From assembly GCF_011039205.1 (NCBI RefSeq), contig NZ_JAAKEL010000001.1:1-64000 (forward strand): a stretch of DNA of 64,000 bases, read 5' to 3'. Both the position numbers and the translations under genes were made by a program. The number at the start of each line of letters is the position of its first letter. Position 1 is the stretch's first letter. The DNA comes from Dysgonomonas sp. ZJ279 (lineage in GTDB: Bacteria; Bacteroidota; Bacteroidia; Bacteroidales; Dysgonomonadaceae). Below are positions 5,210 to 24,154 of the stretch, piece after piece. The notes below the pieces were generated by a model. The model was not told the origin of the DNA and searched no databases. It saw only the letters and a program-made list of their open reading frames with translations.

Positions 5210-5622
5210 TGGCACGTATAAAACGAATGGGTGAAGTCTATTCAGCTGGTGATGCAAAAGTTACTGTAGCTGGTATATATGACTTCGATCCGAGTGCTAT
5301 ATCCTACGGATACAAATACGCTCATGAATACCAACGAGGGCTGAAAAGAAAGCCTAGAGGCTGGAGAATGGGGGCTATTGAGTATGAGTCTAGTATGACT
5401 TTACCATTGGATATAGTTGCTGAACTAGAAAAGATGTTTGGAGATATCGCATTGATCAGACCATTTCCTGTCAACGTTACGTTTGCAAACTTCGAGAATG
5501 AAATGATCCATGACATCATTTGGATGAAATTCACAGGAAACAAACGAGATGTAACCAGCGATGGTGAACTAGAGAATGAGTTTGAAATGTTTGTGTTAGA
5601 TATGAAACTAAATATAATTTAA
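5209..5622 (+). CDS. Tail tube protein
   Basis: A 137-residue protein directly after the sheath gene (1-base overlap) and before the tail-assembly chaperone pair, the canonical position of the tube subunit. The composition is consistent with a beta-barrel tube protein (alternating hydrophobic strands, e.g. about residues 75-90), without a signal peptide. No catalytic motif is expected. Confidence 0.65.
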   Translation: MARIKRMGEVYSAGDAKVTVAGIYDFDPSAISYGYKYAHEYQRGLKRKPRGWRMGAIEYESSMTLPLDIVAELEKMFGDIALIRPFPVNVTFANFENEMIHDIIWMKFTGNKRDVTSDGELENEFEMFVLDMKLNII

Positions 5623-12649: not shown

Positions 12650-15178
12650 ATGGAAAATTTAGATAAAATAGTAGGATATTTCGAGCCAGGTAAAACCCCA
12701 ACTTATGAGGAGTTCAAAAAGTCATGGACTTCTTTTTGGCACAAATCTGAAAAACAACCGATAACACAAGTTTTAGGGCTGAATGATAGTTTAAATTCGT
12801 TAGACAACAAAAAAGCCAATAAAGAAGATTTAGCGAATGTTGTCGGCGGTCTTAACCCGATGGGTAGCGTTGAGAAATACACCGACTTAGCGGCAAAGCC
12901 AAAACGTAACAACGATTCTTATTTTGTAAAAGACCGACCCGACGAAAACGGCGACCCTTATATATTCCGTTATGATGCCGAGCTCGGCGAGTGGATAAAT
13001 ACTGAGCAAGTCGTTTATAAAGACGTGGCAAAGAAAATAGATATATCCGCCTCAATCATTGACATGTCGGGCTATACTGTGACTATCAAAGGTTTTTTAA
13101 ACAATACGGGCGGCATAGGCAATTATGGTAATCTTATGTATTCGGCTAAATTGCCTTATAACAATGGGGTTATAAGAGTGTCGGGGCGGTCAAATATAAG
13201 TTGCCCGTATATCTTATTTTATGACGTTAAAGGCATTTTGCTTGGTGTGCTGAATAGTACGGCGACCAGTTTGGAAAAAGTTGAACGAATAATTGAAAAA
13301 GAAAAAATACCCGAAAATACAGTAACTTATGTTATTAACGGGTATGAGGGTGAGTCTTACGCCATTTCGACCACAACGAGCGATTTATCAGACAGACAAT
13401 ATTTAGATATTGCCGAAAATGTTTTAAATAATCTCAATATAATGCATCCAACTAGCCACCATGGTGAGGGCGTGGACGGTGGCGTAATTAGTGATGGTAA
13501 TAAGAAAGTAACTATACCGATAGGGGCGAAAGGTAATGCTTCTTATCTGCAAGCTCATTTTTATGATAATGAATTAATTAAAATTATTAAGGATGCTTAC
13601 ATGTACGATATTAAATCGGTATATGGCGTAATTAAAATCAAGGTGAGTGATAATAAAATAGGTGATTATATATCAGGACATTTTCAAGTAGATAGTGTTC
13701 ACACAAGTGTTGCTCGCCTTGTAGCCCGCTTAAAAGTTGGTAATTATATTTACTTTATAGTAAATAACTGGGGTGATTTGTCAACCTTGAAAACTCACAT
13801 TAGATTGGGGGTTCAATTCTTTCCGAGCGGCAATACTTTTGAGCAAGATTTTGTATTTGAGTATGTAGGTATGACAGTTTTCATTCGCAATAATGAAATA
13901 TATGCAAGATTGTTAGACGAAAAGGTCGCAGAGAAAAAGAATATAACCGAGAAAGTTTACGGTACGTCAAAGTATGCACAAAATGTGTTTCAAACATTTG
14001 TCGGCGGTTTGGCTTGTCTTAACACACCAACGGAAATGGCGGGTTATCTTAGAAATATATATGTAAGGTCAAATGGTGCGGGTTCGATGCGTTTCGGTAT
14101 TGGTATAATAGACCAGCGTAGCTGGGCAATAATCAGAGATACATTTTCGGTTGATGTAGTTGCAGGCAATAATACGGTTGATGTATTCAGCCGAAAAATA
14201 ACAATCAAAAAAGACGAGTTACTCTTTATTTATCTTGACAATGCTACTACAAGCCCTTGCTTTGGTGTAAATGCAGAAACCGACCCCGATTTATTGCTTT
14301 ATAACGATAAGACCGCAAGCGGTGTATTATCAAGACTGGCGACAACTTACGGCGGGTATATTACCCTTACATGGGAAGTAATAACCATAAATAGTGAATA
14401 TTTCGCTACAAAAAACGAAATAGAGATTGTAAACGGCGAAATAAAGGATATTAACGAGACAATTATACAGACAAAGGCACAAATCGGCACTGCACCCGAT
14501 TATTTTGGAAATAAATATGAGTTGCGGGTTGTCAATAATGTTGTAGTGCCTATTCCGATGAGATATAAGAAATGCGTATGTGTCGGCAACTCTATTACTT
14601 ATCACGGCAAAGCGACCGATTTGTGGTGGGGCGAATGGGGCATGGCGGCATCAAAAAAAGAGTATGATTATGTTTCGATTGTAGAAAAAGGTTTGCAAGT
14701 CGTTGACAATACAGCCACAGCAACCCGACTAAATGCAGCGGCATGGGAGCGTAATTTCAATATAGATAAAAATTCATTGTTTGGAGGTGTGGCGGCTGAT
14801 ACCGATTTAATCGTTTTTCGCTTTGCCGAAAATGTTGTTGATACAGCAAATTTTGAAAATGCTTTTGATGACTTGGTGTCTTACTTCTTTGCCAAATGCC
14901 CGAGAGCAAAGTATTTGATTACAGGTGTTTTTTGGAGAAATACAACTAAAGATACCGCTTTGATGAATGTTGCAACAAAGTACGGCATTACATTTATTCA
15001 ACTTTCGGACTTAGATACGCTGGAGAATAAATGGAAGCTGGGCGACTTGGTTTGGGGCGATGATGGTGAGCAACATGCAATAATAAATATCGGCGTGGCT
15101 AATCATCCGAACGATAATGGAATGAAACATATAGGTAACAGAATATTAACGGCGGCGGGATATGAAACGATAGAGTAA
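12650..15178 (+). CDS. Large tail fibre with C-terminal SGNH hydrolase domain
   Basis: An 842-residue fibre. The N-terminus (1-80) resembles the baseplate-attachment region of other fibres; the middle (about 100-630) is beta-rich with no recognised enzyme. Residues about 640-842 are an SGNH/GDSL esterase domain: GNSITYH (nucleophile block), WWGEWGMAASKK, AAWERNF, FAENVV and ANHPNDNGM (catalytic His block). The domain is collinear with the C-terminal half of the lipoprotein at 16252-17475. From about 12830 onward the codon choice (GGCGG, CGAC-rich) differs from the neighbouring phage genes, suggesting an imported receptor-binding module. It probably binds and deacylates a surface glycan. Confidence 0.75.
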   Translation: MENLDKIVGYFEPGKTPTYEEFKKSWTSFWHKSEKQPITQVLGLNDSLNSLDNKKANKEDLANVVGGLNPMGSVEKYTDLAAKPKRNNDSYFVKDRPDENGDPYIFRYDAELGEWINTEQVVYKDVAKKIDISASIIDMSGYTVTIKGFLNNTGGIGNYGNLMYSAKLPYNNGVIRVSGRSNISCPYILFYDVKGILLGVLNSTATSLEKVERIIEKEKIPENTVTYVINGYEGESYAISTTTSDLSDRQYLDIAENVLNNLNIMHPTSHHGEGVDGGVISDGNKKVTIPIGAKGNASYLQAHFYDNELIKIIKDAYMYDIKSVYGVIKIKVSDNKIGDYISGHFQVDSVHTSVARLVARLKVGNYIYFIVNNWGDLSTLKTHIRLGVQFFPSGNTFEQDFVFEYVGMTVFIRNNEIYARLLDEKVAEKKNITEKVYGTSKYAQNVFQTFVGGLACLNTPTEMAGYLRNIYVRSNGAGSMRFGIGIIDQRSWAIIRDTFSVDVVAGNNTVDVFSRKITIKKDELLFIYLDNATTSPCFGVNAETDPDLLLYNDKTASGVLSRLATTYGGYITLTWEVITINSEYFATKNEIEIVNGEIKDINETIIQTKAQIGTAPDYFGNKYELRVVNNVVVPIPMRYKKCVCVGNSITYHGKATDLWWGEWGMAASKKEYDYVSIVEKGLQVVDNTATATRLNAAAWERNFNIDKNSLFGGVAADTDLIVFRFAENVVDTANFENAFDDLVSYFFAKCPRAKYLITGVFWRNTTKDTALMNVATKYGITFIQLSDLDTLENKWKLGDLVWGDDGEQHAIINIGVANHPNDNGMKHIGNRILTAAGYETIE

Positions 15179-16251: not shown

Positions 16252-17475
16252 TTATTGAATAGATTTTAAAATTGCATCAGCAATACCTGCCATACCTTTA
16301 TCTCCAGGATGATTAGCTACACCTGGTGCTGTTGCACCACCTTCTGATATTAAATGCCATTTTCCATCATCACCAAACACCTTAGTATCAAGTGTACTTT
16401 TATTGTCAGGAGTATCTAAGTGATCTAAAGTAACCCATATACAATTATGTTTTTCTGCAACTTCTTTTTGAATAGCATCTTTTCTCTTATTTGTCCAAAA
16501 GTTTCCTGTTATTATGTAATTGGCTTTTGGTGATTTACCTTTCAAATATTTGACCAATTCATCTAATTCATCTTTATAGCTAGCATATACAGTTTCGTTA
16601 CTAGGTACATTTTCGCCCAAACGAATAATAATTAGATCTTCATCACCTGCAAGATAGTTATCTAATGAATTTTTGTTAAACCCTTTGAAGTCTCTTTCCC
16701 ATGCTGCTACATTTATTGCATGAAATGAAATGTCATTATTATACCTAACTTCTAGTGATCTGTTTAATACATGAATATAGTCATTTTCTTTTTTGGTTGC
16801 AGCCATACCCCATTCACCCCACCAAAAGGATGTAATAGAGTGTTTAGTTATGGAATTACCTAAAGCAACCCATTTTTTCACAGAACCTATTATCACATTT
16901 ATGTTGCAACTAGCCGATAAAGTTCCATCTTTCGACTGTATTTTAATTGTTGTTTTTCCTGCTTTTTTAGCATTTATAGTGATTGAGTTGTTGTTAGACA
17001 CTATTATATCAGCCACATCAGTAGAAGAATTTAGCCATTCATATTCTTTCGTTTTCAAGAATTCGTCACTAAATATAGGAGATAACTCTAATGTCTCATT
17101 CGTATTTATTGTTTCTTCTGCATTACTGAACGAAATGGATCCTTTGCCAACATTAATTTTACATATAGCAAAGATAGTACCATCAACAGCCTCTATTCTT
17201 ACTATTGTATTTCCTTCCGCTATTGCTGTTATGTCTGCTGAGTTATCTTCATTAATGTCAACTTTAACAACATTCGGATCATTGGATAGCCACCTATACT
17301 CTTTGTCTTTAGTAGTAGTATCGAAAATAGGAGTTAATCTTGTTTTCTCTCCAATTAAAATTGAGACTTCATCTTTCTCAAATGTAATCGTTCCGCTACC
17401 AGAATGATCATCATCACTAGAGCATGCTGAAAACATAAATATTGATAGTAGTAATAGTAAATAAGTCTTTATCAT
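16252..17475 (-). CDS. Surface lipoprotein: two Big_2 domains plus SGNH hydrolase (phage moron)
   Basis: The start MIKTYLLLL at 17475 gives a lipoprotein signal with FSAC (Cys18) followed by SSDDD, an acidic surface-export signal as known for Bacteroidetes lipoproteins. Two bacterial Ig-like (Big_2) repeats follow (about 28-110 and 112-190), then an SGNH esterase (about 195-407) with GNSITKH, WWGEWGMAATKK, AAWERDF, LGENVP and ANHPGDKGM. This domain is collinear with the tail-fibre C-terminus. The gene is opposite to the fibre and has its own TAnnTTTG box, fitting expression in the lysogen. I infer modification of the phage receptor on the cell surface. Confidence 0.75.
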   Translation of the reverse strand: MIKTYLLLLLSIFMFSACSSDDDHSGSGTITFEKDEVSILIGEKTRLTPIFDTTTKDKEYRWLSNDPNVVKVDINEDNSADITAIAEGNTIVRIEAVDGTIFAICKINVGKGSISFSNAEETINTNETLELSPIFSDEFLKTKEYEWLNSSTDVADIIVSNNNSITINAKKAGKTTIKIQSKDGTLSASCNINVIIGSVKKWVALGNSITKHSITSFWWGEWGMAATKKENDYIHVLNRSLEVRYNNDISFHAINVAAWERDFKGFNKNSLDNYLAGDEDLIIIRLGENVPSNETVYASYKDELDELVKYLKGKSPKANYIITGNFWTNKRKDAIQKEVAEKHNCIWVTLDHLDTPDNKSTLDTKVFGDDGKWHLISEGGATAPGVANHPGDKGMAGIADAILKSIQ

Positions 17476-17501
17476 AATTACGATTTGTTTTGATATTGAT
17501 A

Positions 17502-17509
17502 CAAATATA
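17502..17509 (-). promoter_or_regulatory. Candidate -7 box of the lipoprotein gene
   Basis: TATATTTG (reading the complement) matches the Bacteroidetes -7 consensus TAnnTTTG and lies 27 bases upstream of the preferred start at 17475. No convincing -33 box was found. Confidence 0.4.
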
Positions 17510-17534
17510 AATAACTTTTTAACAAGAACGGCTA

Positions 17535-17909
17535 TCATTTGACAGCCGTTTTACTTTTATATTGCTCTTCCTGGTCGGTTGCATACTGATATATTTCTTT
17601 CCAAGATGGTAAGCCTCCTACCTGTTTATCATCTATATAGAGATGTGCATATACTTTCCTTGAGTTAGATTGATATTTCTTTATGTTTTCAGGCTCATGT
17701 TCATTGATTCTGTCAAATGGTATCTCTTGTTCAATCAGCCAATTTATAGCTTCAGTAAGTCTATCTCCATGCCTGCATGTCCAAATGATGAGATAGTGTC
17801 CATCTGCTTTTAGCTTATTCATGTACTTTACAGCTTCAGCTGCAATTTCTCCTATACTTGGAAAGTCTCCAGTGTGAAGAGTACCATCAAAATCTACTGC
17901 TATAATCAT
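17535..17909 (-). CDS. HAD-superfamily hydrolase (BT0820-like)
   Basis: A 124-residue single-domain HAD phosphatase. DFDGTLH (6-12) is motif I with nucleophile Asp and acid/base Asp, IIWTCRHG (about 40-47) includes the motif II Thr and HLYIDDKQVGG (about 89-99) is motif III. It lacks a cap domain. Small HAD proteins of this type are frequent in Bacteroidetes phages and genomes; the substrate is unknown. It is at the 3' end of the leftward early block, 3 bases after the ATPase gene. Confidence 0.75.
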   Translation of the reverse strand: MIIAVDFDGTLHTGDFPSIGEIAAEAVKYMNKLKADGHYLIIWTCRHGDRLTEAINWLIEQEIPFDRINEHEPENIKKYQSNSRKVYAHLYIDDKQVGGLPSWKEIYQYATDQEEQYKSKTAVK

Positions 17910-17912
17910 ATT

Positions 17913-18539
17913 TCAAAACAAGGTTAATTGACGTTTATCTGCACTTTGAGGAGTAAAAAGTTGATACTTGACAGGTTGATCAAGATATCTACTTATTGCG
18001 TGAACACTTCCTCTTTTAAAGTATAGTTTGATATCTGAAGCATGAAGTAAATCAATGCCACTAGCTGGACTTCCTAATGCTTTTCCAAAGTCTATCATGA
18101 CAATAGATAGTTGACGTTTGGCAAATAGTTCTTTCAATCGTTTAAGTTGCTCATTTGTAAAGCTCATATACTTAACCGAATCAATGATAATCAGCCTGTA
18201 ATAGTTCTTTTCGATATAGTGGCACATTTCGTCAAAGCTGAAGCTGTCAGCTATCCAAAGTCTTTTGGCATCAATATCAAAATTATTGACTCTATCCTGG
18301 ATAGTTTTGTTTGCACCCTCTTCATGCGAGTTGTAGAGGACTTTGCCAAAATTACGAGCAAAATAATCAGCAAATTGGAGCGTAAATACTGATTTGCCTG
18401 AGCCACTTTCTCCATAAAAAAGAGCTACAAATCTCTTTGCTGGTTCTCCCATCAAGTGAGCGTACTTAGGTTCAAGCTCCAAGTACTGGTACTTTTTCTC
18501 TTTGATGGCTTTGACACTAAAAATTCTTTTTTTAGCCAT
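17913..18539 (-). CDS. RecA-like P-loop ATPase of the early operon
   Basis: A 208-residue protein with Walker A GESGSGKS (about 43-50), Walker B-like YRLIIIDSVKYM (about 113-124) and a RecA/DnaB-like core fold pattern. Such phage ATPases act in recombination or replication; the exact role here is not evident. A tRNA-like element fills the gap upstream (18568-18614), 29 bases before the ATG. Confidence 0.65.
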   Translation of the reverse strand: MAKKRIFSVKAIKEKKYQYLELEPKYAHLMGEPAKRFVALFYGESGSGKSVFTLQFADYFARNFGKVLYNSHEEGANKTIQDRVNNFDIDAKRLWIADSFSFDEMCHYIEKNYYRLIIIDSVKYMSFTNEQLKRLKELFAKRQLSIVMIDFGKALGSPASGIDLLHASDIKLYFKRGSVHAISRYLDQPVKYQLFTPQSADKRQLTLF

Positions 18540-18567: not shown

Positions 18568-18614
18568 TTGTTCCTATGCAGGGAGTCGAACCCTGCCATG
18601 AACCATTATAGGAT
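18568..18614 (-). ncRNA. tRNA-like element 1 (acceptor helix plus T arm)
   Basis: Read on the minus strand, TCCTAT pairs with ATAGGA (6 bp), stacked on a 6-bp T stem GCAGGG/CCCTGC with the loop TTCGACT. A 12-bp acceptor/T stack of this kind is the minimal substrate recognised by RNase P (known). The D and anticodon arms are replaced by 11 bases. The 3' tail is ACAA rather than CCA. The 47-bp sequence is identical to element 3 at 23893-23939. It occupies an intercistronic gap of the early operon. Confidence 0.6.
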
Positions 18615-18625
18615 GAGTTATTGAT

Positions 18626-19219
18626 TTATATGCGTTTTAAAGACTTTGCTGTTTCTCTTATAAATTCTCTCATTTCTCGAATTGTCAATTTATTCCAATT
18701 ACAAAATGTCTTAGATCCTGCAATGTCATTAGTATGTTTTTTTCTCAAGTCAAGAGTAACAGATAAGCCATTAAAAATTGGACGAAGAGGAGCGAGTACA
18801 TAAACATCTTCCCATTTGTTTGCCTTTTTCCATTTATCCCAGAACTCAAATTGATTATCATTATATTTCCAGTGAGGAAATTTGTCGGATTCTTCTAATG
18901 GCATGTGATATAGTCCGATATTCTCCCACCAACATAAACTTCCATCTTCAACTGATTTAAGGAGGTATTTGCGATATCCTAGAGTTTCTTCTTTTATTTC
19001 CAATAACCAAGACAAGTACCATTTTGTAAATGGAGCAGCCATTAAACGAACGAGACTTCCTATCGGTGGATTATCCGCAAATGCACCTGATTCAAAACCG
19101 CATGTTTTCCCAAATGGAGGCAAACACTTACCATCATACAAGGTGTTGGTGCAAAAGGTCATTACATAGTTCAATATCTCTAGCCTTGCCCGATTGAACG
19201 TTTCTTGTTTATTGTTCAT
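18626..19219 (-). CDS. Phage early protein, function unknown
   Basis: A 197-residue soluble protein, rich in Trp and other aromatics (SLCWWENIG, FPHWKYNDNQFEFWDKW). I recognise no family. It sits in the early operon, overlapping the DUF3164 gene by 11 bases and ending 12 bases before tRNA-like element 1. It has no signal peptide or membrane segment and is probably involved in phage replication or takeover, by position only. Confidence 0.6.
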   Translation of the reverse strand: MNNKQETFNRARLEILNYVMTFCTNTLYDGKCLPPFGKTCGFESGAFADNPPIGSLVRLMAAPFTKWYLSWLLEIKEETLGYRKYLLKSVEDGSLCWWENIGLYHMPLEESDKFPHWKYNDNQFEFWDKWKKANKWEDVYVLAPLRPIFNGLSVTLDLRKKHTNDIAGSKTFCNWNKLTIREMREFIRETAKSLKRI

Positions 19220-19901
19220 GGCTTGTTTCCTTTTCCTCTAGCAACTCATCAGCCACACTCATAGACAATGGTAGACTTCTTTCTTTGCCGTTTTCGTCTC
19301 TGTACTTCACATCAATAAATTGACATGTAGGTACTGGTTTATAAGCTTCTTTGATGATATTGATTCCTTCAGTGAATGTTGGATCATTCCTTTTTACAGC
19401 TAATTGCTCAAGCTCCAGTACTCTGCTGGCTTTCAGGTTTCCTTTGCGATCCTTTGATATCAACTTCATAATAGTATCAAGCAGATCTGCACTGTTTTCG
19501 TCTTTTGCCAACGTTCTGAGGTACTCTTTTACTTTAGTGATGCCAATATCAACTGTATCAGCCCAGCCATCATTGACACGATTACCAAGCTTTATGCTAA
19601 TTTTACCATCTTCAGTAGTTAGCGTATCAGATTGTCTATCAGATTTGGTTTTGTAAAGCTCATCTTTCATGTCGATGATGTTATCAAAACCGCTAAACAC
19701 ATCTCTTTTTGTTGAGATCAACAAATTGGATATCTCCTGTAACTTTCCAAAAAATGTTACAATAGCCTCATCTTTCAGGCTCTTGTAAGTTTCTCTTTCC
19801 TGTTGGATCCGTAAAGCTTCAGCTTCTTTACGTTCTTTCATCTGAGCTTCTAGCGATGCTAGTTCTTCAGGTGAGAATTGGTTTAAATCGACTTTTGTCA
19901 T
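19209..19901 (-). CDS. DUF3164 family protein of Mu-like phages
   Basis: With the ATG at 19901 (MTKVDLNQFS) this is about 230 residues: an N-terminal coiled-coil-like region rich in Glu, Lys and Arg (about 10-60), a middle NRVNDGWADTVDI and a C-terminal FIDVKYRDENGKERSLPLSM. The pattern fits DUF3164, which marks Mu-like early regions. Its molecular role is not established. The start is 7 bases after the preceding gene's stop. Confidence 0.65.
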   Translation of the reverse strand: MTKVDLNQFSPEELASLEAQMKERKEAEALRIQQERETYKSLKDEAIVTFFGKLQEISNLLISTKRDVFSGFDNIIDMKDELYKTKSDRQSDTLTTEDGKISIKLGNRVNDGWADTVDIGITKVKEYLRTLAKDENSADLLDTIMKLISKDRKGNLKASRVLELEQLAVKRNDPTFTEGINIIKEAYKPVPTCQFIDVKYRDENGKERSLPLSMSVADELLEEKETSHEQ

Positions 19902-19908
19902 ATTGCTA

Positions 19909-20157
19909 TTATTTAGAATTAGTAATTTGTTCAATTTCAGCATCAATCTCATCTAATTCTTTTTGAGGATTGATGACATTGAGCATATTATTGTACTGCT
20001 GATAACTGCATAGCAATACAGGCTCAATATGTTCTTCAAATACACGACTACGTACAGTGGTATTGTTTTCATACTTTACCATTAGGTCTTGAGCCAATAT
20101 GCATTTACGCAAATAAGCTCTTCTTCTACCTAATTTCATTTTCATTATTTTACTCAT
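19909..20157 (-). CDS. Small phage early protein, unknown
   Basis: The preferred start, ATG 20157 (MSKIMKMKLGRRR), gives 82 residues with a basic N-terminus and an acidic helical C-terminus (ELDEIDAEIEQI). No family recognised. A longer reading from 20217 would run through tRNA-like element 2 and is rejected. It is tightly coupled to the DUF3164 gene downstream. Confidence 0.55.
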   Translation of the reverse strand: MSKIMKMKLGRRRAYLRKCILAQDLMVKYENNTTVRSRVFEEHIEPVLLCSYQQYNNMLNVINPQKELDEIDAEIEQITNSK

Positions 20158-20172
20158 AGTCTGTATTACAAT

Positions 20173-20223
20173 TTGTGAGTGTGCAGGAGTCGAACCTGAA
20201 GCGTTACCATCTAACACACACCC
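20173..20223 (-). ncRNA. tRNA-like element 2 (with D-like hairpin)
   Basis: On the minus strand GGGTGTG pairs with CACACTC (7 bp with one G.T), stacked on a 4-bp T stem CAGG/CCTG with the loop TTCGACT. Between them GTTA-GATGG-TAAC forms a D-arm-like hairpin with GG in the loop. There is no anticodon arm. The tail is ACAA, as in the other two elements, although the helix sequences differ. It lies between the stop at 20230 and the start at 20157. Confidence 0.55.
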
Positions 20224-20229
20224 TTTGTT

Positions 20230-20697
20230 TCAATTAGCATTGAAAGCTATCTTTGTCAGTTTCTTAGTAGCATCGGCTTTATCCTTTGCTAAAATCGCCT
20301 CCAGTTTAGGGATTAATAGATCCATCTCATCGGTATCCATTTCACCAAGCGTTTTACCAGCTATTTTAGGATTACGCATAAACTTGTTCACTACAGCCCA
20401 GCTTGTGGTATCTATTCCTAGCTTTTGCAGTCTCAAGAGTATGGCAGATCGGCGTTGCTTTAATTCTCGTTCGATGATCAGCCTTGTCTTATCATCAGGT
20501 TTTGCAGATTGACTAATAGTTCTTTGCATATCATTAATCATCTTTCTGTAGTCTGATGGTCGCTTCTCAAGGAACTCAGATAAAGAAGTTGTCAACTTGT
20601 AGCTATACTTCCATACAAGCTCATCTTTATCGGCTCCTGGCATACTAGCCAGTAGTACAAAAAACAGGCTATGTGGATTGTATCTTTTAGTAGACAT
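20230..20697 (-). CDS. Conserved phage early protein, unknown (GemA-slot)
   Basis: A 155-residue helical protein. The C-terminal region (KFMRNPKIAGKTLGEMDTDEMDLLIPKL, residues about 106-133) resembles a segment I associate with Bacteroidetes phage/mobile-element hypothetical proteins containing a PxIAGK motif. The position after MuB is where Mu-like phages encode modulators such as GemA/Mor-type regulators; that role is only an inference. It overlaps the MuB-like gene by 11 bases. Confidence 0.5.
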   Translation of the reverse strand: MSTKRYNPHSLFFVLLASMPGADKDELVWKYSYKLTTSLSEFLEKRPSDYRKMINDMQRTISQSAKPDDKTRLIIERELKQRRSAILLRLQKLGIDTTSWAVVNKFMRNPKIAGKTLGEMDTDEMDLLIPKLEAILAKDKADATKKLTKIAFNAN

Positions 20698-21625
20698 TGC
20701 TTTTCAATTTTAAACGTTCACGTTTTACTCCTCTTTTAATCACACGTTTATCTTTAACTACAAGAACTGTTTTACCTTTCATCTCACCCTCTTCGATGGT
20801 TACTCCTACTGGTTCAGCAGCCTTAAATATTTCTTCCTGGAGTGATTTGTCGGTGATACCATTTGCCTCGCAGATCCTGCGTGTGTCTGCCAGTGTTGCA
20901 CCAAACAAATGGATGTATCGGCGACCAAAACGGCTATCAAGTTCATCGTAACCTTTTTTATTCAGCCTCACACCTCTTTTTATCTCAACTTCAAGATTTT
21001 CAGTACCTAAAATTGCCATACCTAAAACATCTTCATTCTCATTGAATAGGTGAATGAATGTACGAAGTGCTGAAGGTCTGAGTGAGTTAGCCTGGTCAAT
21101 AATAAATAGTGGCTTCAGGTGTGCTATTTTCTTAACAGCTGAAGATATGCTATCAATCAGTAGGCTCACTGATGCATATCCTTTCGGTTCTTCAGCTCCC
21201 AGTTCCTTCATCAGTTTGAGTAAAAATGCGCGTCCAGCCCATTCTTTACAGTTGATTTTGAATACACCTTTAGTTTTGAATTGGCTCAAGAAGATATCAG
21301 CTGTAGCAGTTTTGCCACTGCCAGCATTGTCTGATATACCCAAAAACATACTTTCTTGTTTGGCATCATTCAATACTTCAGCTACGATCTTAAAGTCAGT
21401 TACATTGCTTGCAATATTCCAGTTGTTATTATCGAAGCTGTAATCTAATGCCAGTGCTATTTTCATATACATATCATCACCTTTAGCGAGATATGTACCA
21501 CTTAACATTTGAGATATGGTAGCTTCTGAGATACCACACTTTTTCGCTACTGCTTTGTAGGATCCCAATCTTACTTTTTCTGATTCTATCAATTGCAGAA
21601 TCTCATTTTTTTGTATATTTGTCAT
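20687..21625 (-). CDS. MuB-like transposition ATPase
   Basis: With ATG 21625 it is 312 residues. The N-terminus is a Cro/C1-type HTH (about 20-45, YKAVAKKCGISEATISQMLS), as in MuB, followed by an AAA+ ATPase: Walker A NAGSGKT (about 100-106) and Walker B LFIIDQAN with Asp about 177. MuB binds DNA as ATP-dependent filaments and delivers target DNA to MuA. It is located directly downstream of the transposase and a small ORF, as in Mu. A TTTAAA triad lies 12 bases upstream. Confidence 0.85.
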   Translation of the reverse strand: MTNIQKNEILQLIESEKVRLGSYKAVAKKCGISEATISQMLSGTYLAKGDDMYMKIALALDYSFDNNNWNIASNVTDFKIVAEVLNDAKQESMFLGISDNAGSGKTATADIFLSQFKTKGVFKINCKEWAGRAFLLKLMKELGAEEPKGYASVSLLIDSISSAVKKIAHLKPLFIIDQANSLRPSALRTFIHLFNENEDVLGMAILGTENLEVEIKRGVRLNKKGYDELDSRFGRRYIHLFGATLADTRRICEANGITDKSLQEEIFKAAEPVGVTIEEGEMKGKTVLVVKDKRVIKRGVKRERLKLKSNVY

Positions 21626-21636
21626 ATTCAATTGAG

Positions 21637-21665
21637 TTTAAAGGCTCTTTAAAGTCGGTTCAAAG
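21637..21665 (-). promoter_or_regulatory. TTTAAA triad, 11-bp period, upstream of MuB-like gene
   Basis: On the + strand TTTAAAG (21637-21643), TTTAAAG (21648-21654) and TTCAAAG (21659-21665) repeat at exactly 11 bp. The core TTTAAA is self-complementary, so the same motif serves this leftward gene (start 21625). A fourth partial unit (TTTATTG, 21670) continues the phase. Confidence 0.6.
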
Positions 21666-21694
21666 TGGCTTTATTGAGCCTTTTGGTTTATATT

Positions 21695-21889
21695 CTATTT
21701 TGTATATTGAGGAAAATAGTAGGACATCCAAGCTTTAAAATCTTTCAGCATAGCTTCACATCTTGCTTTTTGCTCCTCTGTTGTTTCCTTATCAATATCA
21801 TCTATCACAATATGATCTCTATTTTGGAGTTCTTGCAGGCTTTTTAGTCTACGATCCATATATCTTTCTGCACTTTTTGTTAGATCCAT
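21695..21889 (-). CDS. 64-residue protein resembling the TerL N-terminus
   Basis: This small protein between the MuA-like and MuB-like genes ends in KAWMSYYFPQYTK. It aligns along its whole length with residues 1-57 of the terminase large subunit at 138-884 (ID.. T.EE...R...L......W..YYFP.Y). In TerL this segment precedes the ATPase and may contact the portal or small subunit. Here the ATPase is absent. It may be a remnant, or a stand-alone peptide that binds packaging partners. The start ATG 21889 is 2 bases before the transposase stop. Confidence 0.6.
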   Translation of the reverse strand: MDLTKSAERYMDRRLKSLQELQNRDHIVIDDIDKETTEEQKARCEAMLKDFKAWMSYYFPQYTK

Positions 21890-21890
21890 A

Positions 21891-23876
21891 TTAATATTGA
21901 TGTTTAGCGGTTATTACTACATCTCCTTCATCCCATTCCTCAAGTAAAAAAGCAGATTCAGAATCTTCATAAGTATGCTTTGGAAGTATTCCTCCTTGCA
22001 TCATATTTACCTCACTTGCTTCATGTTGAATAGCTACATCTAGCTCTGTATCTTTGATTTTGGCACGTTTTGCTTTGCGATCGGTGTCGACTTTTGTCGC
22101 TATTGATTTTAGTCTACCAACAGCACGCATATCTCTATCGGGTCCGAATTGTTGTGCTGGTTCTATTCCAGCAAACGAACCTACATACTCATCACCATCA
22201 TAGAGGTGTACAGTATCTAAGTTTTCGTAATCAAAGCAATTGGTGAGTTTTACGCCTGTATATTTGGCTATTACATCACAATCATCAATACCATAGTAAT
22301 AATGTGCATTGTCGATTTGTGTATGTATCATATAGTTAAATATGGATACTTGCTTATTCAGTCCGAATAAGAAGCACCAATCATGATCTGTTATTGGGTA
22401 AGTATTAGGTTTGTCGCTTTCTTCATGTAGTTCCATCGGCGACTGATCAATACTTTTAAACTTAGTTGAATATTCAGAAAATGGAGTATTTAGATAGCTA
22501 TTAACTATTTTGTCGGTTTCTTTGCAAGCATCATCATAGTTGAAATGATTTTTGTTAGCCCATTGACGCATAGATTGTACATATTCTTTACTTCTATGTG
22601 CATGCCTGCGAGTAGATTTGATACCTTGACCATAATATAGATCACTATCCATCATAAACACGTCCTGTAAGGTTCCCCACCAACGCTCAATGTTTGCTTT
22701 ACCATCAGCCTTATAGGCTATAGTCATGCGAGTACCTTTTGCACGCATATAAGTCTCTATGGTTTGCCATTCAGTTGTGTTGTGTCCTGGAAAGCGGTCG
22801 TATACGAATTCATAAGGAAGGTATCCAGCTGTACGAACTGCCATAGCTAAAGCGTTAATCACAGCATCAGCCGTTTCTTCATAGCAATACTCCCAGCCTA
22901 ATGGCATACCACTCATTACATCACGAACTGCGATAATATATAAGAACTTTTGCCCTGTTACCTTTTTGCCTTGTTTGTTGATATATGTGGCTTTGTGGTC
23001 TATTATATTGACACGTGTACCATCTATTTGCCAGCAGTCACCAGCAAATACAGCCGTTTTAGTTGGTATAGATGGTATATATTTACGATTAAATCTACTG
23101 TTGGATCCGTATCTTTGTTGTGTGAGATATTGTGTTTCAGGATCAGCTAAAAAGTTGCTTATCCATCGTACTGATGGGTGATCTATGCCTGATTGCAAAC
23201 TCATACGCTTTACTTTTCGGTGTATGAATGCTGCTGAATAGTTCTTTTGGCTTTCAATAAACGTTATTAACCATGCCTTGATCGTTTCATCATTGGCAAA
23301 CTTTGTACGATGGTTATTGCCTTTGTTTTTAGCAAATACAAGGTCTGTGATCTTACTGGTGTTGTGATATTCTTGCACCTTGTCTCTTACATTTCTCCAT
23401 GTTTTTGGCAGATGCTTCAGATCCTGAAGTTTTATTTCATCAGCCAGTTCATCAAAAAATGCAGATTTTGCAAACGATACTTTATTATTGATAATGTACT
23501 TGTTAGCCTCGTGAATAATAGCAGCTGCTAAAGCTAGATCTTCATCATTCTTATATAAACCTAAAAAGTCCTTTGTCGTGTCCTCTTTAGCTGTATTAAT
23601 AAGGCTAACAATATCAGTGTCATATCTAACAGCTAGCATCTGCAAATTATCCCTTGTAGGTAAGTTACATTTGGAGCTGGCAGGGATGTTAGCATATTTG
23701 AAATATGATGTATTGTGTAACTCCACATTTTGCCACGATTCAGAAGTGCCTTTATTAGCCCTGCTTTTAGCTACTCGCAAATAGCCAGCGCTAATGCCAG
23801 CATGATCTAGTATATACTCTTGTGAGAGGTATAAACTAGATTTGTAGCTAATAATATCGCCTGTATTCACGTTCAT
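21891..23876 (-). CDS. MuA-like DDE transposase
   Basis: With ATG 23876 (MNVNTGDII) it is about 661 residues. The N-terminal part has DNA-binding HTH-like segments; the rve-type catalytic core shows GDCWQIDGT (Asp about 285), FVYDRFPGH (Asp about 358) and NIERWWGT (Glu about 396), the D-D-35-E arrangement. A Mu-transposase C-terminal domain follows. It catalyses strand transfer of phage ends during integration and replicative transposition. An upstream in-frame reading through tRNA-like element 3 is unlikely to be real. MuB follows downstream. Confidence 0.9.
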   Translation of the reverse strand: MNVNTGDIISYKSSLYLSQEYILDHAGISAGYLRVAKSRANKGTSESWQNVELHNTSYFKYANIPASSKCNLPTRDNLQMLAVRYDTDIVSLINTAKEDTTKDFLGLYKNDEDLALAAAIIHEANKYIINNKVSFAKSAFFDELADEIKLQDLKHLPKTWRNVRDKVQEYHNTSKITDLVFAKNKGNNHRTKFANDETIKAWLITFIESQKNYSAAFIHRKVKRMSLQSGIDHPSVRWISNFLADPETQYLTQQRYGSNSRFNRKYIPSIPTKTAVFAGDCWQIDGTRVNIIDHKATYINKQGKKVTGQKFLYIIAVRDVMSGMPLGWEYCYEETADAVINALAMAVRTAGYLPYEFVYDRFPGHNTTEWQTIETYMRAKGTRMTIAYKADGKANIERWWGTLQDVFMMDSDLYYGQGIKSTRRHAHRSKEYVQSMRQWANKNHFNYDDACKETDKIVNSYLNTPFSEYSTKFKSIDQSPMELHEESDKPNTYPITDHDWCFLFGLNKQVSIFNYMIHTQIDNAHYYYGIDDCDVIAKYTGVKLTNCFDYENLDTVHLYDGDEYVGSFAGIEPAQQFGPDRDMRAVGRLKSIATKVDTDRKAKRAKIKDTELDVAIQHEASEVNMMQGGILPKHTYEDSESAFLLEEWDEGDVVITAKHQY

Positions 23877-23892
23877 TGTACTTACTTTAAAA

Positions 23893-23939
23893 TTGTTCCT
23901 ATGCAGGGAGTCGAACCCTGCCATGAACCATTATAGGAT
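23893..23939 (-). ncRNA. tRNA-like element 3 (identical to element 1)
   Basis: A 47-bp sequence identical to 18568-18614, in the gap between the stop at 23942 and the transposase start at 23876. It has the same TCCTAT/ATAGGA helix, GCAGGG/CCCTGC T stem, TTCGACT loop and ACAA tail on the minus strand. Confidence 0.6.
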
Positions 23940-23941
23940 AG

Positions 23942-24154
23942 TTAAATAACCTCGCCTTGAGGTGTGTAACTGGTAGTACCTGATGGGGTTGTTATTTGGC
24001 ATAACCAAAAGCCTTCAGGTGTGGCTTCATTCGCCCAATACTCTATTTGATCAAAAGGGGTGTCATCTGCTAGTTCAGCTTCCGATACTTTCGTTAAATC
24101 CTCCAATCGAGGACAAAATGGGTTTTTGTTTCTCCAGGTTACTTTTACTTTCAT
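23942..24154 (-). CDS. Small phage early protein, unknown
   Basis: A 70-residue protein with Trp residues (VTWRNKN, EYWANEA, EGFWLC). No family recognised and no signal peptide. It is in the early operon between the Ner-like gene and the transposase, ending 2 bases before tRNA-like element 3. Confidence 0.5.
   Translation of the reverse strand: MKVKVTWRNKNPFCPRLEDLTKVSEAELADDTPFDQIEYWANEATPEGFWLCQITTPSGTTSYTPQGEVI

Follow-up and report, generated by a model that had tools for sequence, protein, structure and literature searches.

Anticodon-less mini-tRNA elements as candidate processing marks in the early operon of a Mu-like Dysgonomonas prophage

The first 64,000 nucleotides of contig NZ_JAAKEL010000001.1 of Dysgonomonas sp. 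ZJ279 (hereafter the window) begin at the contig end, within a Mu-like prophage whose early operon lies on the minus strand and comprises small open reading frames (ORFs), a MuA-like transposase, a MuB-like ATPase, a phrog_14123 protein, a DUF3164 protein and a P-loop ATPase. The joint presence of MuA- and MuB-like transposition genes in a single early operon is that of a Mu-like (transposable) phage. Three gaps between genes of this operon hold short RNA elements resembling transfer RNA (tRNA) stripped of its anticodon arm, here called mini-tRNAs. All three are real, and belong to a large RNA family that has no Rfam model match at cut-off in the window.

Three mini-tRNA elements in gene gaps

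All features described in this section lie on the minus strand unless stated otherwise. Element 1 (23893..23939) consists of a stack at 23897-23938 and an ACAA tail at 23893-23896, and is built from a 6 bp acceptor, an 11 nt loop with GG, a 6 bp T stem and the T loop TTCGACT, scoring 42.7 bits (E 1e-7) with the covariance model described below. It separates a 70 aa ORF (23942..24154), whose stop codon lies 3 bases ahead, from the MuA-like transposase (21891..23876, 661 aa; PHROG 310, E 2.2e-29; Pfam rve at 30.1 bits, slightly under the cut-off of 32.6), whose ATG lies 20 bases past the stack. Element 3 (18568..18614; stack 18572-18613, tail ACAA; 39.3 bits, E 8e-7) follows the stop codon of a 197 aa ORF (18626..19219) at 12 bases and precedes by 32 bases the ATG of a P-loop ATPase of KaiC/AAA type (17913..18539; PHROG 6891, E 3e-29; Pfam ATPase). 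Between them, element 2 (20173..20223; tail ACAA 20173-20176) has an acceptor of 7 bp, a D stem of 3 bp and a T arm whose stem is mismatched once, at the base; it begins 7 bases after the stop codon of the 155 aa phrog_14123 ORF (20230..20697), and the ATG of an 82 aa ORF (19909..20157) lies 19 bases past its stack. The MuB-like transposition ATPase (20687..21631; PHROG 296, E 1.5e-29; AAA_22) belongs to the same operon.

The initial annotation had placed three elements at these coordinates, each filling the gap between one stop codon and the next start and each folding into an acceptor-like helix, a T arm with TTCGACT and an ACAA tail with no anticodon arm; all of this holds, the strand being the coding strand of the early operon. 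By eye, elements 1 and 3 are indeed identical over 47 bases (23893-23939 and 18568-18614), and element 2 differs from them in its helices. Taken by itself, element 2 falls short of significance in the covariance search (17.7 bits, E 0.38), its fold is not unusually stable (z -0.56), and it was missed by a first scanner demanding a perfect T stem. It is accepted because a related Dysgonomonas phage (L009) carries a syntenic counterpart at 5323-5371 with a perfect stack, upstream of a 78 aa ORF that resembles the 82 aa ORF of the window (by eye; a cluster of three).

In the window, neither ARAGORN nor Rfam finds a tRNA, and none of 4227 Rfam families matches at its curated cut-off. The bare T-arm word, with up to two mismatches, occurs 11 times against 6.2 expected, a count reached in 11 of 100 shuffles and therefore not unusual, and the exact word is found only at the three elements.

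A covarying family and its anatomy

Relatives of the prophage were collected through a transposase search, which returned 5 + 65 loci in viral contigs and 19 loci in genomes; a set of 82 loci was retained, including the window, with some repeats of one contig dropped. Duplicate phages persist in this set (L009/L073, L020/L088, L027/L082), so that counts of distinct elements drop identical sequences and counts of loci do not. The first scanner, which sought a T arm, an acceptor and a short loop with score bonuses for GG and tail, identified 47 elements in 30 of the 82 loci, 46 of them on the transposase strand, compared with 1, 1 and 0 in three dinucleotide shuffles. A covariance model built from 19 seeds gave 103 matches in the 82 loci at E up to 1; 94 lie below 0.001, all on the transposase strand, with up to six per phage. 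The helices proposed in the initial annotation are conserved in relatives of the prophage, and the compensatory change it had suggested is borne out. The resulting alignment, of 83 distinct rows, has standard pairs in 98.8% of its cells, and 8 to 9 of the 11 modelled pairs are changed on both sides, with a covariation score of 0.677 versus 0.130 in shuffles and at most 0.135 when partners were slid. In the Dysgonomonas phage L009, whose transposase is 65% identical to that of the window, the syntenic element before this gene folds in the same way although, by eye, three of its pairs differ in both bases. Among the matches listed, only one of 198 ARAGORN tRNAs in 56 pattern-scan loci overlaps a model match (L211, weak at 19.1 bits, E 0.097), indicating that the model does not simply find tRNAs. 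Mini elements from six relatives and four phage loci likewise reach no Rfam cut-off, giving only sub-threshold tRNA and mascRNA-menRNA scores when the thresholds are relaxed.

The anatomy of the family is closely constrained. The stack was examined in 77 distinct elements, two of which were not fitted; a greedy fit with totals of 10-13 bp allowed gave 11 or 12 bp in 72 of the remaining 75 (36 and 36), as the initial annotation had it, with no mismatch in 56. The division between acceptor and T stem varies (5+7 in 25, 5+6 in 24, 6+6 in 7 and others in 19). From T loop to discriminator the 3' strand measures 12 nt in 58 of 92 elements and 11 nt in 28 (6 not measurable); the two measures of stack length differ on the share of 11 versus 12 and agree on the range. 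In 50 of 75 elements, 11 nt separate the acceptor strand from the T stem, and this loop carries GG at positions 4-5 in 52; its overall range of 8-18 nt leaves no room for a decoding anticodon arm. In column counts, which omit gapped rows, the loop GG corresponding to tRNA G18-G19 is present in 79/80 and 80/80, the T loop reads TTC[GA]A in 82/82, and in the tail R73-C74-A the columns C74 and A75 are conserved in 79/79 and 77/80, respectively. The elements therefore share with tRNA genes an acceptor stem, a TTCRA T arm and the elbow GG, and lack a decoding anticodon arm. A separate match in L040 (1118-1164, 31 bits) is element-like and stands before a transposase, without the TTCRA T loop. By eye, a second short hairpin (e.g. 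TGGCAATAATGCCA) directly follows the RCA tail in several phages (L011 after 8250 and 8647, L058 after 5889, L069 after 13815 and 14292).

Host tRNA genes end in a similar manner. Tails were read in 30 of 39 matches of this genome and 30 of 96 from two other hosts; position 74 is C in 26 of 26 distinct genes here and 30 of 30 in the other two, and position 75 is C in only 7 of 56 (G000, G419, G420). In this shared tail style, with C74 encoded and C75 rare in host tRNAs, the elements mimic the pre-tRNAs of the phylum and not tRNAs that already end in CCA. The partial CCA of the host tRNA genes is perhaps itself kept for RNase P.

A scan allowing longer loops, applied to 106 stretches, recovered 52 mini and 38 larger tRNA-like RNAs, and none in two shuffles. 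C74 is present in all 38 larger forms (the tail being part of the score), and an ATG follows at 10-36 bases in 25. ARAGORN calls ten of the 38 a tRNA, seven with a readable anticodon and three without; among the ten, one is an ordinary tRNA in an unrelated contig (L091) and certain others (L018, L050) have the look of intact tRNAs. Larger forms in L055, L264 and L267 match RF00005 at 48.9, 46.7 and 44.1 bits (cut-off 29). At comparable gene-gap sites in related phages, including hankyphage and transposable phages of Porphyromonas gingivalis, the anticodon region of the larger form is mostly abnormal or swapped. In hankyphage p00 the larger form lies about 25 bases before a small ORF and bears a structured extension in place of the normal anticodon arm; ARAGORN still reports it as tRNA-Arg, and four records annotate it so. 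In a divergent hankyphage the extension is altered, with the acceptor and T arm retained and the D arm almost unchanged. The RNA of seven P. gingivalis phage loci has ACAAA at its end, with the transposase ATG 15-17 bases past the stack (two records place the gene start upstream of that ATG); the D and T arms are kept, the acceptor nearly so, and the anticodon region, of differing sequence, spans about 21 nt in five loci and about 70 nt in two. Throughout this graded series the acceptor/T stack, elbow and R73-C74 are kept, and the anticodon arm is dispensable.

Placement between genes and spread among phages

As in tRNA punctuation, the elements directly adjoin coding regions and share their strand within a polycistronic unit. 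The distance from upstream stop to element has a median of 7 bases and is at most 15 in 60 of the 90 distinct elements with a recognised upstream ORF, 39 of which start within 3 bases of the stop codon or overlap it. On the other side, the ATG lies 10-36 bases past the element in 75 of 92 distinct elements (median 21, range 3 to >50). The 93 downstream ORFs form 35 clusters (21 singletons); they were called mechanically, and not all need be genes. The largest cluster, with 22 members, is the transposase; the element is accordingly a portable module of gene gaps and not one gene's control region. A gene-specific riboswitch or autoregulation was rejected on the same clustering. Copies within a phage are near-identical (median identity 0.93 over 97 pairs, versus 0.64 between phages).

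Two cases led us to reject the idea that the family belongs to a single transposase lineage. In the genome of Dysgonomonas sp. ZJ279, a second prophage (L101) encodes another MuA-like transposase, immediately preceded by an element, and in Elizabethkingia phage TCUEAP3 (L265) the MuA gene likewise follows a mini element (E 6e-12). Winogradskyella phage Peternella_1 has no element. Elements occur in 5 of 25 genomes of a genus sample, the window's own included. With strict filters and an E limit of 1e-4, a phylum sample of 395 genomes gave only three with an element, again with the window's own among them. Two matches in one genome (G048) resemble, by eye, pieces of odd tRNA genes ahead of a terminator-like hairpin, although ARAGORN calls no tRNA there, and for that appearance they are counted as probable false positives.

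Several further observations concern the wider occurrence of such RNAs. Two long viral contigs carry a mini element, one of 57.8 kb (L207 3061-3108, minus strand, 30.0 bits) before a 636 aa ORF that by eye is DNA-polymerase-like, and one of 67.7 kb (L164 7963-8014, plus strand, 27.6 bits) before a 974 aa ORF; within the stretch examined neither has a recognised Mu-like transposase, and the family may reach beyond transposable phages. Elsewhere on the window's contig, at about 604961-605310 (L102 6962-7310), three tandem mini-tRNA-like units with degenerate flanks lie between two ORFs of another apparent mobile element, near a tyrosine-recombinase-like ORF (by eye). A c4-2 RNA (RF02944) lies downstream in two related phages, above cut-off in L045 (9362-9440) and below it in L043 (8171-8248). 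Within the window itself, the C-terminal part of an 842 aa late-side protein (12650-15178, plus strand) resembles by eye a stretch of a 428 aa ORF (16252-17538, minus strand), sharing GNSIT..H / WWGEWGMAA.

Probable processing by host enzymes, alternatives and known systems

Our analysis makes it probable (roughly 0.6) that these marks are where host RNase P and RNase Z cleave the early mRNA, in the manner of mitochondrial tRNA punctuation. Each element would be a cis-acting processing mark, the minimal tRNA part read by trimming enzymes with the anticodon arm removed, and the parts read would be the elbow (D-loop-like GG and T loop), the 11-12 bp acceptor/T stack, and the discriminator with C74. 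Host RNase P would cut the polycistronic early mRNA at the 5' base of the stack, just past the stop codon of the preceding gene; past the discriminator, just ahead of the short AT-rich leader of the next gene, the cut would be made by host RNase Z (or 3' trimming). The products would be separate messages, each with a clean 5' leader and decaying independently. A more encompassing evolutionary account, in which transposable phages of Bacteroidota have evolved operon-wide tRNA punctuation from portable anticodon-less mini-tRNAs of about 42 nt, stripped from real tRNAs, copied from gap to gap and used by host enzymes to split the early transcript into separate mRNAs, stands in our judgement at even odds.

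The host encodes both RNase Z and an RNase P RNA, and the latter carries GGUAAGAG (by eye, L103) in the stretch that we take to be its P15 loop. In bacterial RNase P RNA, the GGU of the P15 loop pairs with R73-C74-C75 (available text of PMC11143913); the elbow, where two D-loop guanosines meet the T loop, is reportedly what both RNase P and RNase Z recognise, and the two enzymes are reported to measure to their cut sites (available text of PMC11693755). The elements carry the acceptor/T stack of about 12 bp and the single-stranded R-C at the 3' end of a bacterial RNase P substrate. What has been kept is thus what these enzymes read, and what has been lost is what decoding needs, which argues that the elements are cut marks. 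The initial annotation, too, had read them as mRNA-processing signals, a reading partly supported by the RNA structure and covariation, the position in gaps and the strand, along with a stack of nearly uniform length, conservation of elbow and tail, and a gradual passage into larger forms, all of which are observed here. From these features we infer cleavage, the enzymes acting and an effect on expression.

A number of observations weigh against cleavage at the elements. The greedy fit leaves 1-3 mismatches in 19 of the 75 fitted elements, and single-sequence minimum-energy folding does not select the acceptor helix in elements 1 and 3 (z about -2.5). The second and third pairs are near-invariant C-G, which recognition by RNase P or RNase Z in general does not obviously need, and which shared ancestry may explain; the first pair is mostly U-A, and RNase P favours G-C there. 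The base before the stack is A in 51 of 75 elements and T in 8, whereas host tRNA genes mostly have T (20 of 26 in this host; in two other hosts T in 12 and A in 9 of 30), so that the U at -1 of most host pre-tRNAs, a preference and not a rule, is not typical of the elements. Cutting at elements situated 0-3 bases past a stop codon would leave the upstream message ending almost at its stop codon, possibly at a cost. Seven of 98 elements lie within an ORF running at least 30 bases past both ends. Finally, 30 of the 82 related loci have no recognised element, indicating that the marks are not essential to this lifestyle, and a mini or larger element precedes the transposase in only 26 of 76 testable loci.

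Of the other explanations, the one to be taken most seriously, unlikely as we consider it, is that the RNA stays uncut as a 5' leader whose tRNA-like fold raises translation or stability of the downstream gene, whether through insulation, protection, or a ribosome- or tRNA-binding factor. The spacing of 10-36 bases before the ATG in 75 of 92 elements, the many kinds of gene that follow and the AT-rich stretch after the element (by eye) are all compatible with such a leader, although the distance to the ATG ranges from 3 to more than 50 bases and hence defines no fixed ribosomal register, a plain insulating hairpin needs neither GG, TTCRA and R-C-A nor a constant 11-12 bp, and the larger tRNA-like forms are left unexplained. 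Were the excised mini-tRNA itself the product, acting in trans as a decoy or competitor for tRNA enzymes, a CCA-tailed minihelix or a small RNA, the excision features and the near-identity of copies within a phage would be accounted for; this we regard as improbable, since such a product would not need intergenic placing, and helix sequences vary so freely between phages that no antisense target is conserved.

The series from near-complete tRNA to mini forms, with ten of 38 larger forms called by ARAGORN and seven of these retaining a readable anticodon, recalls decayed tRNA genes devoid of present function. Decay is nevertheless very improbable given several copies per phage, and compensatory changes, constant length and conserved loops that together betray continuing selection. 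Least credible of all is a site acting in the DNA, whether for a transposase or as a promoter, operator or terminator. The imperfect inverted repeats found between genes could be read so, as could the reverse-strand -7 word TAnnTTTG, found in 20 of 92 stretches versus 10, 17 and 19 in shuffles. All model matches are, however, on a single strand, and pairing is kept with helix sequence free. The full promoter pattern that we assumed for Bacteroidota is no commoner than in shuffles (forward 0 and reverse 1 of 92, versus 0 and 0-1), and a T run past the stack occurs in none of 98; promoter, terminator and DNA operator were rejected on these two counts.

If cleavage by host RNase P and RNase Z is correct, a virus turns the most universal RNA-processing step of its host into a general operon cutter, revealing how little of a tRNA suffices for processing in nature. 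It would place a case of tRNA punctuation beside mitochondria and outside organelles, supply Bacteroidota with a set of marked, natural RNase P/RNase Z sites in mRNA, and offer a short portable part for splitting operons. The proposed cleavage is directly testable in phages already studied, above all hankyphage, for which RNA-seq has been published (available text of PMC12135933). Even with the mechanism wrong, a widespread and strongly covarying RNA family without an Rfam match in the window calls for explanation.

That tRNA-like RNase P and RNase Z substrates, and punctuation by tRNAs, exist in nature is already known. Among the titles listed by searches of the open-access literature (tRNA-like RNAs in Bacteroidetes, Mu-like or transposable phages, and in connection with RNase P/Z and operons; tRNA punctuation in bacteriophage) there is no report of such elements, and we know of no dedicated anticodon-less, multicopy family in phage operons. 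The word tRNA is absent from the searched text of two hankyphage papers (one of them PMC12135933), and in the available portion of a paper on P. gingivalis phages tRNA figures solely as a site of insertion.

Related RNAs are found in several settings. Transfer-messenger RNA (tmRNA) has a tRNA-like domain with no anticodon arm and a reduced D loop, and the phage P1/P7 C4 RNA, an antisense regulator acting in trans, contains a tRNA-like portion recognised by RNase P. Both are named as RNase P substrates in the available text of PMC11143913. The elements, putative RNase P substrates, are like the tmRNA domain in their missing anticodon arm and reduced D loop, but have no mRNA-like part, no encoded CCA and another context. 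With C4 they share being a phage RNA with a tRNA-like RNase P recognition part, and differ from it in that C4 acts as antisense in trans, is not an intercistronic mark and has another structure. Nearly identical in minimal architecture are the model hairpin substrates of RNase P, made of acceptor stem, T stem and T loop (same source); those are synthetic, whereas the phage elements are natural, repeated and also keep the D-loop-like GG. The mascRNA/menRNA family of MALAT1 and MEN beta (RF01684) consists, like the elements, of tRNA mimics, and is read by RNase P and RNase Z via the elbow (available text of PMC11693755); two elements of one phage (L020) score 27.7 and 26.1 bits with this model, weak and below its cut-off of 42.5. 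These RNAs differ in forming the 3' ends of eukaryotic nuclear long noncoding RNAs, with a longer anticodon-like stem and no operon. The closest parallel in arrangement is provided by animal mitochondria, in which RNase P and RNase Z excise tRNAs from between mRNAs (available text of PMC4394434). Here as there, tRNA-like RNAs occupy the gaps of a polycistronic unit, often straight after a stop codon; unlike the mitochondrial tRNAs, those of the bacterial phages, candidate cut marks, are mini RNAs without an anticodon arm, unusable as tRNAs and present as near-identical copies within one phage.

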